40,855 nt of DNA from Deltaproteobacteria bacterium (GTDB lineage Bacteria > Desulfobacterota > GWC2-55-46), in NCBI GenBank assembly GCA_016219115.1, contig JACRCH010000126.1:1-40855 (forward strand), in the 5' to 3' direction. Below, one piece after another: positions 7,696 through 28,774 of the stretch. The notes beneath the pieces are model-generated. The model made no database searches. It saw only the letters and a list, made by a program, of their open reading frames with translations, and was not told where the DNA came from. Numbering within the stretch: position 1 is the stretch's first letter; the number at the start of each line of letters is the position of its first letter. The position numbers and the translations under genes are program-made.

Positions 7696-7734
7696 TGACT
7701 CTGACTCAGGCTTTAAGACAACCGAATAGAATAT

Positions 7735-7912
7735 CAGGGTGATCCCCTTTCAAGGGGGATTTAAAAGGGAATCCCGTGACCCGCTTCGGCGGAGAATCGG
7801 GAACGGACCCGCCACTGTAAACGGGACGAAATCCGCTGTAACGCCACTGGCTGAAAAGGCCGGGAAGGCGCGGAGAGTAGGACAAACCGTAAGTCAGGAG
7901 ACCTGCCCGGAT
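7735..7912 (+). promoter_or_regulatory. Cobalamin riboswitch (B12 element)
   Basis: The RNA would carry the conserved core of the cobalamin riboswitch in the right order: GGGAATCCCGTGA, an ACGGACCCGCCACTGTAA segment, a variable arm with GGCCGGGAAGGCG, and the B12 box AAGTCAGGAGACCTGCC at 7891-7907. It lies upstream of the corrin and cobalt-uptake genes and is followed by a terminator at 7981-8014. Binding of adenosylcobalamin in the family favours termination or hidden translation starts, so cobalt import and ring synthesis would fall when cobalamin is plentiful. The outer boundaries are approximate. Confidence 0.96.
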
Positions 7913-7980
7913 ATGCCTCACGGAACTCTTCGAAGGTAAAGAAGGTGAGGGAACTCGATATTTTTTCATCGGAATACCCA

Positions 7981-22908: not shown

Positions 22909-24291
22909 GTGGAATGCGGGATGTTTAAAGAAGGAACGCTCAATTTAAATGCCGAAGGCGTAATATTAAGGTTCGGCAACAGCCTCGAAGACATACTCGG
23001 GTACGGATCCGAAGAGCTTGTTGGCAAAGATTTTTCGTGCCTTGCCCCTCGCGGCGCTGAAGCCTTTTTCAAGACCCTCCTTAACGCTGTCAACGAATCC
23101 GGCGTCTACACCTCCCGCGAAGTCAGGATGCTCCGTAAGGACGGCACCACCGTAGACCTGTTCCTTTCCGCCTACCCTTTGAGGGACCGCACCGGGGACC
23201 TCTATTCCTTCATGATCGTCTTAACAACGCAGATGGGCCCGGAAGTACCGGGAATACTCTCCGAAGAGTTTCAGCGGGTCTTCAGGTTCTCAAACGACGC
23301 GGTGGCCATAACCGACAGGGAAGGCTCCATAATGGATGTGAATCAGGCCTTCCTCGATACATACGGCTACAGAAGGGAAGATGTCCTGGGAAAGAACCCG
23401 AGGATTTTGAAGTCGCGGCATTCGACCGGAGAGATGTACGAGAAGATGTGGAGAGACATCCTCGACCCCCGGAAGAACTTCTGGAGGGGCGAGATAATAA
23501 ATGTGAGAAAAGACGGGACCGAGGTGCCTGTGGTACTGTCGATAAACGCCATAAAGGGTTCTGACGGGGAGATAAAGAACTTCCTCGGGATCGGCTACAA
23601 CATGTCAGAGAAAAAAGAGATGGAGAGGACGAACCGGATGTACATCGACCATGTCGTCCATGACCTCAGGGGCCCGCTTACCACCATAATGGCGAACTCC
23701 GAGCTTCTCATGGCGCAGATACAGGGGCTTACGGAAAAGAGCAGGAAGAAGCTCGACGCGATATTCCAGTCATCCCAGAAATTAAACGCCATGACAGGCG
23801 ACATCCTCGACTACAGCCGCGCTCAGTCCGGGGGCCTCACGCTCAGAAAAGAGAAGGTAGATCTTACGAAGGTGTTCAGGGAGGCCGCCATGCCCTTCGA
23901 GACCTCGGGTAAAAAGCTCCTTCTGAACGGCTCGGAGTACGGAGAAGACTTCTCTGTTGACAGCGCCGTTAACGCCGACGCGGGAAAGCTCCAGAGGATA
24001 ATCTATAACCTCCTGAATAACGCCTTCAAACACGCCGCTACAGAGGTGAGAGTTTCCATGGAATTTCCGGATGGAGGGCTCAAGGTGACGGTATCGGACG
24101 ACGGCGGGGGTTTTTCCGCACAGGATGCCGAGCGGATATTCGACGCCTATTACCAGACCGAAAGCGGGGTAAAGACCGGAGGGGCGGTACTCGGGCTATC
24201 CATAGCAAAGTGTTTTGTGGAGGCGCACGGAGGGCGCCTCTGGGCAGACGGGGGCAAAGGCGCGACCTTCGGCTTTTTCATGCCAGGGTAG
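22909..24291 (+). CDS. Soluble PAS-PAS sensor histidine kinase
   Basis: The 460-residue protein has two PAS domains (about 10-107 and 118-236), the second ending in a PAC motif (FLGIGYNMSEKK). A HisKA domain follows with the phospho-acceptor His251 in HDLRGPLT, then an ATPase domain with the N-box NLLNNAFKHA, G1 DDGGG and a G2 region GGAVLGLSIAK. No membrane helices are seen, so it should sense a cytoplasmic signal through the PAS domains. Both PAS domains lack an obvious haem or flavin signature to the eye. No response regulator is adjacent, so its partner is unknown. The start is a GTG at 22909 or an ATG at 22921. The 22750-22908 gap holds no clear gene. Confidence 0.88.
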   Translation: MECGMFKEGTLNLNAEGVILRFGNSLEDILGYGSEELVGKDFSCLAPRGAEAFFKTLLNAVNESGVYTSREVRMLRKDGTTVDLFLSAYPLRDRTGDLYSFMIVLTTQMGPEVPGILSEEFQRVFRFSNDAVAITDREGSIMDVNQAFLDTYGYRREDVLGKNPRILKSRHSTGEMYEKMWRDILDPRKNFWRGEIINVRKDGTEVPVVLSINAIKGSDGEIKNFLGIGYNMSEKKEMERTNRMYIDHVVHDLRGPLTTIMANSELLMAQIQGLTEKSRKKLDAIFQSSQKLNAMTGDILDYSRAQSGGLTLRKEKVDLTKVFREAAMPFETSGKKLLLNGSEYGEDFSVDSAVNADAGKLQRIIYNLLNNAFKHAATEVRVSMEFPDGGLKVTVSDDGGGFSAQDAERIFDAYYQTESGVKTGGAVLGLSIAKCFVEAHGGRLWADGGKGATFGFFMPG

Positions 24292-24446: not shown

Positions 24447-24478
24447 TTGACAACGGTTATTCCCTGCTGTATATTACG
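24447..24478 (+). promoter_or_regulatory. Promoter of the molybdate regulator with overlapping operator-like motif
   Basis: TTGACA (24447-24452) and TATATT (24470-24475) are separated by exactly 17 bases. A 23-nt motif, GTTATTCCC, six bases, ATAT, two bases, CG (24456-24478), covers the spacer and the -10 box; it recurs inverted at 24908-24930. That placement suits auto-repression. The ATG at 24484 is only 8 bases after the -10 box, so the transcript should start at or within two bases of it. Confidence 0.75.
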
Positions 24479-24483
24479 CCCTG

Positions 24484-24894
24484 ATGACCAACGCCGTCCG
24501 AAAAAAAACCGCCGGGAAGAACCCTCCTGAAAGGACCGCGCCCAATATATCCTATACGGTCGAAGGGCATATCTGGATAGAGGGGAAGGAGGGGACCTTC
24601 CTCGGCGTGGGCCGTATCACGCTTCTTGAGAGGATAAAGGAGTTCGGCTCGATAACCAGGGCCGCAAAATCCATCAACATGTCTTACAGGAAGGCGTGGG
24701 AGCTCGTAGAGTCGATGAACAGGCAGGCGTATTCCCCGCTTGTGACGGCTTCGGCCGGCGGCAGAAACGGCGGCGGGGCGACTGTCACGGAGGCCGGGCA
24801 GCAGGCCATAGCGGCCTTCAGGCGGCTCGATGAGGGGTTCAGAAGGTTCAGGGAGGATATGGCGCAAAAGATAGCGGGGCCGGTTAAGCGCTGA
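24484..24894 (+). CDS. ModE-type winged-helix regulator without a molybdate-binding domain
   Basis: The 136-residue protein is the DNA-binding half of ModE: VEGHIWIEGKEGTFLGVGRITLLERIKEFGSI (shown here in family order) leads into the helix-turn-helix at about 55-79 (GSITRAAKSINMSYRKAWEL), followed by a wing with an SAGGRNGGGATVTEAG loop. Full ModE proteins continue with one or two Mop/TOBE domains that bind molybdate; this one stops after a charged helix. It lies directly upstream of a porin and modABC, so it probably controls them and itself. How it would sense metal is unclear. The first residues are basic and may be disordered. Confidence 0.87.
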   Translation: MTNAVRKKTAGKNPPERTAPNISYTVEGHIWIEGKEGTFLGVGRITLLERIKEFGSITRAAKSINMSYRKAWELVESMNRQAYSPLVTASAGGRNGGGATVTEAGQQAIAAFRRLDEGFRRFREDMAQKIAGPVKR

Positions 24895-24907
24895 TTTTTT
24901 TCGGCAT

Positions 24908-24930
24908 CGCTATATTTGACGGGGAATAAC
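24908..24930 (-). promoter_or_regulatory. Second copy of the ModE-type operator motif
   Basis: Read on the minus strand, GTTATTCCC (24930-24922), six bases, ATAT, two bases, CG ends at 24908. It equals the motif over the regulator promoter at all fixed positions. On the plus strand it reads CGCTATATT, eight bases, ATAAC-G, resembling the inverted half-sites known for ModE in enterobacteria. It lies 13 bases after the regulator stop codon and 105 bases before the porin start, where control of the porin-modABC transcript would be expected. Confidence 0.7.
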
Positions 24931-25035
24931 GCTGGCGCCGGGCTCGTGCACGCGGTCAACCGGTTTGCCGACCGTAATACCCGAAAAGGAATAACGAAGC
25001 GCATGCGTTTATCACAACACGGGAGGATGATGGAG

Positions 25036-26163
25036 ATGATCAAGAGGTTGTTTATGTCCGCCGTCATGGCGGGCGCAGTGTTGTTAGGCTCAACGGTATG
25101 GGCCGCTGAGGTCAAAGAGGGAGGGCAATCGGTCGAGTTCAAGCCGAAGCTCGGCGGCTACATAGAGGCCTGGTACAGAAGCGACAACAGTGATTTGACG
25201 AACCAGACCACGGCCTCCAAAAAGGTCGATAACGAGTTCCGGGTGAGAAGGGCACGGCTCACGGCAAGCGGGAGCCTGAACGAAGCGCTCGGGTACAGGC
25301 TTACCGCAAGCCTTGACGGCCCCAGCCCGGCAAGCTCCGCCTCGACGGTAAAGCTTTGGGACGCCTACATGAGCTACACGGTGAACGACCTCCTGATAGT
25401 CACCGCCGGGCAGTTCAAGTACGACTTCACCCTTGAGGGGCTTGAGTCAACCCCGGACAGGGTCCCGGTACTCCGGGCTGAGTCGATAAACGACATAGCC
25501 GGAAAGCTCGGCACAAAAGGAGGAAGCTTCAGGGACATCGGCGTAAAAGCCAACGGCTCGTATAAAAGGGCGCTCGGCCTTACCTACGGAGTTGCCATGA
25601 TCAACGGCAGCGGCATAAACGCCGGGGATAATAACGCCGAAAAGGACATCGTCGGCCGGGTGACAGTGACGCCGGTAGAAAACCTTACCGCGGGCGTATC
25701 AGGATACGGGGGAAAGGGCCAGGACGAGACGGCCGGTTTTGAGGTCAAGGAGAGCGCCTGGGCGCTTGACGCCGAGTATCTTTACGAGGGCCTTAAGCTC
25801 AGGGGCGAATACATTGCGGCGAGATTGCAGAACTGGGATGCGGCAAGCTCGTCTGCCGCACAGGGCAAGACGCAGAAACCGAAAGGCTGGTATATGCAGG
25901 CTTCCTATAAACTCCCGCCGGCTCCATCCGTCGAGGTCATGGGCAGGTACGAGGACTACGAGAAGGATTCGAACACGGCCGACAGCCGCCTGAAGACCAC
26001 CACCGTGGGCCTTACCTATTACCTTAAAGGCAAGACGCGTATAAGCGCCAATTACCTTATGAGAAACGCCAACGGCTCAACGACCGTAACGGCTCAGGAG
26101 ACCGACGCCGTCGGTAGTAGGATCGGCAACCTCTTTCTGTTGCAGGCGATCATGGTATTTTAG
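25036..26163 (+). CDS. OprO/OprP-type porin in the molybdate operon
   Basis: The product (about 375 residues) has a signal peptide MIKRLFMSAVMAGAVLLGST (continuing to VWA-AE). The mature part begins FKPKLGGYIEAWYRSD, then VRRARLTASGSL and GQFKYDFTLEG, hallmarks of the phosphate-selective porin O/P family. It ends in a barrel strand with a C-terminal Phe (QAIMVF). Family members are trimeric outer-membrane channels that prefer anions. Its place between a ModE-type regulator and modA suggests passage of molybdate or tungstate; that substrate is inferred. GGGAGG ends 9 bases before the ATG at 25036; ATG codons at 25027 and 25030 are alternatives. modA follows after 69 bases. Confidence 0.87.
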   Translation: MIKRLFMSAVMAGAVLLGSTVWAAEVKEGGQSVEFKPKLGGYIEAWYRSDNSDLTNQTTASKKVDNEFRVRRARLTASGSLNEALGYRLTASLDGPSPASSASTVKLWDAYMSYTVNDLLIVTAGQFKYDFTLEGLESTPDRVPVLRAESINDIAGKLGTKGGSFRDIGVKANGSYKRALGLTYGVAMINGSGINAGDNNAEKDIVGRVTVTPVENLTAGVSGYGGKGQDETAGFEVKESAWALDAEYLYEGLKLRGEYIAARLQNWDAASSSAAQGKTQKPKGWYMQASYKLPPAPSVEVMGRYEDYEKDSNTADSRLKTTTVGLTYYLKGKTRISANYLMRNANGSTTVTAQETDAVGSRIGNLFLLQAIMVF

Positions 26164-26232
26164 TCTTCAATGTCTCTTTTGTGTTTGACTATCACGGCCA
26201 CACTATTATTTAATACAAAAGGAGGTTTTTCG

Positions 26233-27012
26233 ATGGGTACTTTCCTGAGAACCGCTGTGAAGGCCGCGCTGGCCGTCTGCCTGGTCTTTGTCACGCTCTT
26301 TTTTACATGCCGCAGCTCGCCGGCCGCCGGCACGCTCACGGTAGCCGGGGCCGCTGACCTGACCTTCGCCTTCAAGGAAATAGCGGCGGAGTTTGAGAAG
26401 GAGACCGGCCTGAAGGTGATACTTTCCATGGGCTCCACGGGGATGCTGACGAGGCAGATAGAGCAGGGCGCGCCGTTTGACGTCTTCTTCGCCGCCAACA
26501 GCAAATATATTGACGAGCTTAATAGGGGCAACTATGTCATGCCTGACACCGTCGAGCTTTACGCCGTAGGGAGGATCGTGCTGGCGGTAAACAGGTCATC
26601 CGGCATCCGGGCCACCGAGCTTGCCGACCTTTTAGACCCACGGATCAAAAGGGTGGCGATAGCCAACCCGGATCACGCCCCCTATGGCGTAGCCGCAATG
26701 GAGGCCATGAAGTCGGCCGGACTCTGGGAGAGGCTCAAAGGAAAACTCGTCTACGGAGAGAACGTCAGAGCTACTCTCCAGTTCATACAGACCGGTAACG
26801 CGGAGGCCGGCATAGTCGCCCTCTCGGTAGCGGACCTTCCTGAGATAAGCTATACGGTGATAGACTCAAAGCAACACAACCCGATAAAACAGTCGGCGGC
26901 CGTGGTAAGGGGCACCCGGGAAGAGAAGGCCGCCAGGGATTTCATAAAGTTCGTAAACGGCCCGAAGGGAAGGCCGATAATGAAAAAATACGGGTTCGCA
27001 CTGCCGGAGTAG
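26233..27012 (+). CDS. modA: ModA molybdate-binding periplasmic protein
   Basis: ModA binds molybdate or tungstate in the periplasm and delivers it to ModBC. The 259-residue precursor has a signal peptide to about residue 33 (RSSPAAG), then LTVAGAADLTFAFKEIAAEF with the oxyanion-contacting Ala-Asp region, SMGSTGMLTRQIEQGAPFDVFFAA with the Ser contact, and NPDHAPYGVAAMEAM. These are the standard ModA motifs. AAAGGAGG lies 7 bases before the ATG at 26233; a longer frame from 26170 would spoil the signal peptide. Whether molybdate or tungstate is preferred cannot be told. It is followed 10 bases later by modB. Confidence 0.93.
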   Translation: MGTFLRTAVKAALAVCLVFVTLFFTCRSSPAAGTLTVAGAADLTFAFKEIAAEFEKETGLKVILSMGSTGMLTRQIEQGAPFDVFFAANSKYIDELNRGNYVMPDTVELYAVGRIVLAVNRSSGIRATELADLLDPRIKRVAIANPDHAPYGVAAMEAMKSAGLWERLKGKLVYGENVRATLQFIQTGNAEAGIVALSVADLPEISYTVIDSKQHNPIKQSAAVVRGTREEKAARDFIKFVNGPKGRPIMKKYGFALPE

Positions 27013-27022
27013 GGTCGGTCTC

Positions 27023-27679
27023 ATGGATTTTTTTCCGTTATACCTCACGATAAAGGTCTCATTCGCGGCCACGGTCTTTACCGTGGCCATCGGCCTTGTG
27101 ATAGCGTGGACGATGGCGAAGAAGGAGTTCTTCGGCAAAGACATCCTCGATGTGGTCGTGATGCAGTCGCTCGTCATCCCGCCGACCGTTCTCGGGTACT
27201 ACCTGTTGGCGCTTCTGGGGAAATCGAGCCCGCTTGGAAGGTTCCTTGAGGACGCGCTGGGGTTCCAGATAGTCTTTACCTGGAAGGGTGCGGTGGTGGC
27301 GGCGTTCGTCTCGTCATTGCCGCTTTTCGTAAAGCCCGCGCGCGCGGCCTTCGAGGGCGTTGGGGCGGAGCTTGAGAACGCGGCGCGTCTTCTCGGCAAA
27401 TCCGAGATATACATCATCCGCACCGTCACTCTGCCGCTGGCGTGGAGGGGGATACTCGCCGGGACCGTGATGTCGTTCGCGAGGGCCACCGGGGAGTTCG
27501 GGGCCACTCTTATGATAGCCGGAAACATCCCGGGGCTGACCCAGACGATGCCTGTAGCGATCTACGACGCCGTGCAGAGGGCCGATGACTACACGGCCAA
27601 TATCCTGGTCGGGTTGATAACGCTGTTTTCCTTCACGGTGCTCTATCTGGCGGGCAGGTTCACCAGGGGAAGGTTTTAG
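27023..27679 (+). CDS. modB: ModB molybdate ABC transporter permease
   Basis: The 218-residue inner-membrane protein has five to six helices and the ABC-permease EAA loop (ENAARLLGKSEIYIIRTVTLP, about 119-139), which contacts ModC. The motif ARATGEFGATLMIAGNIPG is highly typical of ModB. It forms the dimeric channel that moves molybdate from ModA into the cytoplasm. It follows modA by 10 bases, and the modC start codon comes directly after its TAG stop, so the three genes are one unit. Confidence 0.93.
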   Translation: MDFFPLYLTIKVSFAATVFTVAIGLVIAWTMAKKEFFGKDILDVVVMQSLVIPPTVLGYYLLALLGKSSPLGRFLEDALGFQIVFTWKGAVVAAFVSSLPLFVKPARAAFEGVGAELENAARLLGKSEIYIIRTVTLPLAWRGILAGTVMSFARATGEFGATLMIAGNIPGLTQTMPVAIYDAVQRADDYTANILVGLITLFSFTVLYLAGRFTRGRF

Positions 27680-28774
27680 ATGAGCCTTAACTTTGAGCTT
27701 AAAAAGAGGCTCCAGGGGTTCTCGATAGACGTCGGGCTAAGGATAGACGAGGAGCTGATGGTGCTTTTCGGGCCGTCGGGCGCCGGAAAGACGATGATAC
27801 TTAAGATGATCTCCGGCATCGTAAGCCCGGATGAGGGGGTCGTGGAGGTCGCTTCGGCAAGGCTATTCGACTCGAAGTCAGGGATAGACCTGCCGATACG
27901 CTCCAGGCGCATAGGATATGTCTTCCAGGACTACGCGCTATTTCCACACAAGACCGTCTTCGGGAACATCTCCTACGGCATAGACTACCTTGAGGACTCG
28001 GAGATAAAGAGAAGGGTCGGTGAGCTTCTTGAGATCATGAGGCTTACGGGTCTCGAAAACCGCTACCCGCATGAGCTCTCAGGCGGGCAGAAGCAGAGAA
28101 CGGCGCTTGCCCGCACGCTTGCTGCAAGCCCCAGGGTGCTTCTGCTAGACGAGCCCTTCTCGGCGCTCGATTACCAGGTGAGGGAAAAACTCCGCTCCGA
28201 CCTCCTTAACATCCACAAGCTCTACCCCATAACCACCATACTTGTCACCCACGACCTTGAAGAGGCGTTCATGCTCGGCAAAAGGATCGCCGTCATAAAT
28301 AACGGCAAGATCGAGCAGACCGGAAGCCGCGAGGATGTGTTCTACAGGCCCCGTACCCGTAATGTCGCCCGCTTCATGGGCGTGAAAAACATCTTCAGCG
28401 GCACTGTCGCGGGGTTTGACTCAGCGCACACGATAATACAGAGCCGGGACCTGGGGACGATAAAGGCGCATACCCCGGGGGGGGCCGCTTTAGGGGTCGG
28501 CAAGGAGGTCTCTTTCTGCATCAGGCCCGAGGAGGTCATAGTCATAAGGCCGGACAAGGTGCTCGACAACAGGGTACAGGACAACCTCTTCGAGGGGGAG
28601 ATAATCGAGACTACCGGGAAAGGCTCCACCCATACGATGTACTTGAAGATAGGCTCTGGAGGGGCGCTCTTAAAGATCGAGCTCCCGAACTTCGTATTGC
28701 GGAAGTTAGCTCTTGCCACAGGCAAGCGTATCAGGATATCATTAAAAAAGGAGGATGTCTGGATAATACCCTGA
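27680..28774 (+). CDS. modC: ModC molybdate ABC transporter ATPase with TOBE domain
   Basis: ModC hydrolyses ATP to drive molybdate import. The 364-residue protein has Walker A GPSGAGKT (31-38), Q-loop YVFQD, signature LSGGQ (133-137), Walker B VLLLDEP (153-159) and switch His191. After residue 230 comes a linker and a C-terminal TOBE/Mop-like domain (about 290-362) that in some ModC proteins binds molybdate and inhibits transport. As the local ModE-type regulator lacks a Mop domain, this is the only visible molybdate-sensing candidate in the operon. The start abuts the modB stop with no gap. Confidence 0.94.
   Translation: MSLNFELKKRLQGFSIDVGLRIDEELMVLFGPSGAGKTMILKMISGIVSPDEGVVEVASARLFDSKSGIDLPIRSRRIGYVFQDYALFPHKTVFGNISYGIDYLEDSEIKRRVGELLEIMRLTGLENRYPHELSGGQKQRTALARTLAASPRVLLLDEPFSALDYQVREKLRSDLLNIHKLYPITTILVTHDLEEAFMLGKRIAVINNGKIEQTGSREDVFYRPRTRNVARFMGVKNIFSGTVAGFDSAHTIIQSRDLGTIKAHTPGGAALGVGKEVSFCIRPEEVIVIRPDKVLDNRVQDNLFEGEIIETTGKGSTHTMYLKIGSGGALLKIELPNFVLRKLALATGKRIRISLKKEDVWIIP

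Follow-up and report, generated by a model that had tools for sequence, protein, structure and literature searches.

The operators of Escherichia coli ModE follow the consensus ATCGNTATATA-N6-TATATANCGAT (PMC2700814, PMC545781), and ModE boxes of this type are already known. In Desulfovibrio and Desulfotalea, ModE consists of a single domain, and its sensing mechanism is unclear (Rodionov 2004, PMC545781). How a ModE without a sensor domain responds to molybdate has been a testable question since 2004. The locus described here resembles that of Desulfovibrio and Desulfotalea in encoding a ModE-like protein with the DNA-binding domain only, close to molybdate transport genes, but it keeps the E. 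coli-type motif, whereas the Desulfovibrio motif is CGGTCACG-N14-CGTGACCG (PMC545781).

We analyzed a stretch of 40,855 nucleotides, referred to as the window, from the genome of a deltaproteobacterium (contig JACRCH010000126.1). Three palindromes in this window very probably serve as operators for a short ModE-like protein whose gene lies among them. As a dimer, this protein would repress its own promoter and, through transcription reading on from modE, also the porin-modABC genes downstream. The features of the locus are:

24447..24475, + strand: sigma70-type modE promoter (TTGACA at 24447-24452, 17-nt spacer, TATATT at 24470-24475)
24455..24478, no strand assigned: site 1, predicted 24-bp ModE-type operator covering the promoter spacer and the -10 box
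24484..24894, + strand: modE-like gene encoding 136 aa, with the winged-helix ModE domain alone (profile, sequence and fold matches)
24908..24931, no strand assigned: site 2, predicted operator, inverted relative to site 1
24973..24996, no strand assigned: site 3, further predicted operator between modE and the porin gene
25027..26163, + strand: gene of an outer-membrane porin (Porin_O_P family), the first one past sites 2 and 3 (start at 25027, 25030 or 25036)
26170..27012, + strand: modA, molybdate-binding protein (TIGR01256 above cut-off)
27023..27679, + strand: modB, permease (TIGR02141 above cut-off)
27680..28774, + strand: modC-like ATPase (C-terminal TOBE_2 domain at 28517-28765)

The regulator is best described, from its sequence, as a single-domain ModE-like protein and not as a classical ModE. 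Its N-terminal part has the ModE winged-helix DNA-binding domain, although the match to TIGR00637 (E = 3e-24, 84.8 bits) stays below the curated cut-off of 98.5; Pfam assigns HTH_1. Both phmmer and Foldseek returned 2ijl, 1b9m and 1o7l, so that the best solved relatives are the short ModE of Agrobacterium (2ijl) and the DNA-binding part of E. coli ModE (1b9m, 1o7l). The quality of the AlphaFold model is moderate (mean pLDDT 68), with low confidence for residues 1-39. The C-terminal tandem molybdate-binding (Mop/TOBE) domains are lacking, since neither this protein nor any aligned relative continues past the DNA-binding domain. The same single-domain size in eight relatives shows that this is not a truncation of the present assembly. 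As for a ModE, candidate ModE-box operators adjoin molybdate transport genes.

A 23-nt motif had been recognized in an initial annotation of the sequence in two copies, at 24456-24478 on the plus strand (GTTATTCCCTGCTGTATATTACG) and at 24930-24908 on the minus strand (GTTATTCCCCGTCAAATATAGCG), with equal fixed positions, and both were found exactly so. The full unit, however, is a 24-bp imperfect palindrome, CGnnATAn...GGAATAACG, of which each 23-nt motif represents one strand at sites 1 and 2, and a third related site at 24973-24996 (CGTAATACCCGAAAAGGAATAACG), 65 bp from site 2, had been missed. Site 2 lies 13 nt past the modE stop codon (24892-24894), in agreement with the distance given before. 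In most family members, the stop codon of modE is followed by 6-8 consecutive T immediately ahead of site 2 (24892-24903 in the window).

Throughout the 2.30-Mb genome, the exact motif pattern matched sites 1 and 2 only, compared to 0 matches for a reversed control pattern, and the palindromic pattern with 0-1 mismatch matched only sites 1, 2 and 3; as the pattern was derived from the window's own two sites, its significance was tested in relatives. With up to 3 mismatches, 38 matches occurred genome-wide against 66 for the reversed control, and hence there was no excess beyond the three sites. The scan with 0-1 mismatch thus leaves three sites at this locus instead of a random scatter. An enrichment upstream of other molybdenum genes, which the initial annotation had proposed to look for, was not seen in this genome: no other gene has a convincing site, and its sequence does not point to a broader regulon of molybdoenzyme genes.

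The family sample comprised 30 genomes, 10 with and 20 without modE. The strict 24-mer occurred in 8/10 of the former and 0/20 of the latter (P = 8e-6); its 10 matches were all located at modE loci, while the reversed control gave 0. As modB is present in 29/30 of these genomes, the absence of the box tracks the absence of modE and not that of the transporter. In a wider set, a box was found near modE at 19 of the 22 short-modE loci in named genomes, including Nitrospirota and other deltaproteobacterial lineages. These 22 loci held 23 sites near modE, whereas 0.2 would be expected from the remaining sequence of these loci. The window's sites supplied the half-site alphabet, and 7 of the loci belong to family members already seen; among the other 15 loci, 12 have a box. 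The boxes thus accompany modE in relatives and are absent from the 20 genomes without it. Together with the uniqueness of the sites in the genome, this supports the earlier proposal that they are operators of the local ModE-type protein. A looser symmetric pattern gave 19 matches in the family, counted over both strands and mostly scattered, and only one outside the modE loci looked meaningful. This ModE-type box (G020, L150 1501-1524) is located 16 nt before a Mop (molbindin) gene, identified by its TIGR00638 match, with wtpA-like and moeA genes as neighbors. No other Mop gene was found in the family. G020 also has a second short ModE, and by its sequence context the box is independent support for such boxes marking molybdenum genes. 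In another family member (G025, L065), modE matches fall into two frames around the middle, which suggests a frameshift in a low-completeness assembly or a broken gene.

Site 1 is tightly interlocked with the start of modE. The claim that the first motif copy overlaps the spacer and -10 box of a consensus promoter was borne out by TTGACA-17-TATATT, which meets 11/12 consensus positions and recurs in 8 other family genomes. The site spans the spacer and the -10 box, which itself forms the right arm, and the modE start codon lies 5 nt past site 1 and 8 nt past the -10 box. An in-frame start codon 2-8 nt behind the box and 5-11 nt behind the -10 hexamer was found in 17/20 modE genes with such a site, the exceptions being G013, L082 and L088; G020, in which the upstream box is degenerate, deviates as well, and in both G013 and G020 the start codon lies at a greater distance behind the box. 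Because this leaves no room for a ribosome-binding site before the start codon, the modE mRNA is probably leaderless. This combination of TTGACA, box, TATATT and start codon is conserved among family members as well as in Nitrospirota and other lineages. A search of open-access text returned no account of a leaderless modE with an operator locked into its promoter.

The sites further downstream appear to differ in their role. No recognizable sigma70 promoter was found at sites 2 and 3 (best score 3.6 versus 14.5 at site 1); site 2 is absent in 4/10 of the modE-bearing relatives, and site 3 has a counterpart in G006 only. In some of the modE-bearing relatives, modE and modA are only about 60-170 nt apart and site 2 is lacking; there, the transporter genes are likely transcribed from the modE promoter, which makes an accessory role of sites 2 and 3 probable. 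The earlier idea of auto-control and control of uptake by one factor is supported with a correction: site 1 sits on the modE promoter, but sites 2 and 3 have no recognizable one beneath them, and therefore it is probably the modE promoter on which control of uptake would mainly act, while sites 2 and 3 would assist as operators.

Could the sites serve another protein, or none? A histidine kinase gene with a PAS domain (22909-24291) lies upstream and adjoins modE in nearly all modE-bearing relatives, which might hint at its partner response regulator as the binding protein. The kinase, however, is equally present at the locus in relatives lacking modE, which have no sites, and the palindrome follows the layout of the published ModE consensus and not that of a response-regulator direct repeat, which leaves this or any other regulator a very unlikely candidate. 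It is scarcely credible that conservation of a strong promoter is all there is to site 1 and that sites 2 and 3 resemble it by chance. In site 1, the right arm is indeed the -10 box, and sites 2 and 3 are less conserved; but the left arm GTTATTCCC, a part of the promoter spacer, is preserved in 14-20 of the 20 genes (the number varies by column), and a promoter alone would not conserve it. Moreover, site 2 fits the strict pattern although it has no promoter beneath it, several relatives have it again downstream of modE, and 10/10 strict matches in 30 genomes are at modE.

Genomes of the family without modE mostly have the Moco riboswitch (RF01055) instead. It was present genome-wide in 18/20 modE-lacking genomes, with covariance-model scores of 58-91 bits (gathering score 36), and in 0/10 modE-bearing ones, as neither this genome nor the nine others gave a match (Fisher P = 2e-6, an optimistic value because related genomes are not independent). 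When modA upstream regions were first scanned in 14 modE-lacking genomes, the riboswitch was located before modA in these. The two modE-lacking genomes without a riboswitch are G028, in which no modB was detected, and G007, which has neither element; at its locus (L194), modABC occurs without detected modE or Moco riboswitch, and no kinase gene was found between deoB and modA. Where contigs were readable, the gene order in modE-lacking genomes is deoB - histidine kinase - modABC - CDF transporter - lon-like gene, and by this order the riboswitch holds the same chromosomal position as the modE unit. At least four changes between the modE and riboswitch states are required by the ModB tree and likewise by that of the neighboring Lon-like protein, both built by a quick method, and the strongly supported branches of the latter force four; the ModE tree is poorly resolved and does not settle the order of gain and loss. 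In genus g5, a modE-bearing (G014) and a riboswitch-bearing genome (G005) align at about 86-90% identity until the kinase gene ends, and once more starting inside modA; in the interval, G014 has modE, site 2 and the porin gene, and G005 has the riboswitch. From these comparisons, the modE unit and the riboswitch have been exchanged in place at least four times, once within a genus. We found no account of such an in-place exchange in open-access text. A Cobalamin riboswitch (RF00174, 122 bits) is located on the + strand of the window at 7720-7924.

These data are consistent with the following model. The short ModE-like protein would bind the palindromes as a dimer. At site 1, the dimer would cover the spacer and the -10 box and block RNA polymerase; as polymerase would be excluded by a protein on site 1, repression of modE is the natural reading. 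Porin-modABC would be repressed as well, since these genes would be read by read-through from the modE promoter. Sites 2 and 3 may act as accessory sites by looping to site 1, by blocking read-through or by silencing a weak internal promoter. Molybdate supply may modulate the ModE-like protein, perhaps through the TOBE domain of ModC. The unit would represent a protein-based alternative to the Moco riboswitch at the same position in related genomes.

The sensing step also admits another explanation: with genuine operators, the protein could regulate itself constitutively without sensing molybdate, and negative feedback alone would steady transporter levels. The protein does lack a molybdate-binding domain. 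Neither a Mop protein nor a PF03459 TOBE domain was found in this genome, whose completeness of 89% means that a sensor could be missing from the assembly, and Mop is absent from 9/10 modE-bearing family genomes (this one and eight others). The TOBE_2 tail of ModC, however, could be the sensor; no other TOBE-type domain was found in the genome, and this one is encoded in the same operon as modE. In addition, a box precedes the Mop gene in G020, and the element stands in for a cofactor-sensing riboswitch, which suggests that sensing was kept. The short ModE-like protein of Campylobacter jejuni is reported to control molybdate and tungstate transport (Taveirne 2009). We consider constitutive autoregulation rather unlikely. 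That the ModE-like protein reads molybdate status via the TOBE domain of ModC is a guess. It is improbable, though conceivable, that the sensorless ModE and an operator fused to a leaderless promoter form an exchangeable cassette which replaces the Moco riboswitch in place, reads molybdate via the TOBE domain of ModC and so couples repression to transport.

In this family, a predicted protein switch and an RNA switch have clearly traded places at a single chromosomal position, also among close relatives, while the neighboring genes stayed unchanged. The arrangement of operator, promoter and start codon, shared across phyla, predicts leaderless, autorepressed modE genes.

Compared to E. coli ModE, the protein has a winged-helix DNA-binding domain of the same family and is encoded next to modABC, but has no C-terminal molybdate-binding domains. 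Its predicted operators share the CG ends, the TAT/ATA arms, the equal spacing and, at site 1, a position over a promoter with those of E. coli, and differ in the inner arm positions (GTTATTCCC) and, at site 1, in being placed on the regulator's own, seemingly leaderless promoter. The short ModE-like proteins of Agrobacterium (2ijl) and Campylobacter jejuni are alike in their size of about 135 aa and their one domain. The Moco riboswitch RF01055 occupies the same position before modA in relatives lacking modE and presumably does the same job, but is an RNA leader element, whereas the element in the window is a putative DNA operator. In Geobacter, E. coli-type boxes are predicted as well, and the regulator has been split or lost between relatives: G. 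sulfurreducens, unlike the window, has a full-length ModE and many predicted sites, while G. metallireducens keeps the sensor domain and has lost the DNA-binding one, the reverse of the ModE-like protein described here (PMC2700814).
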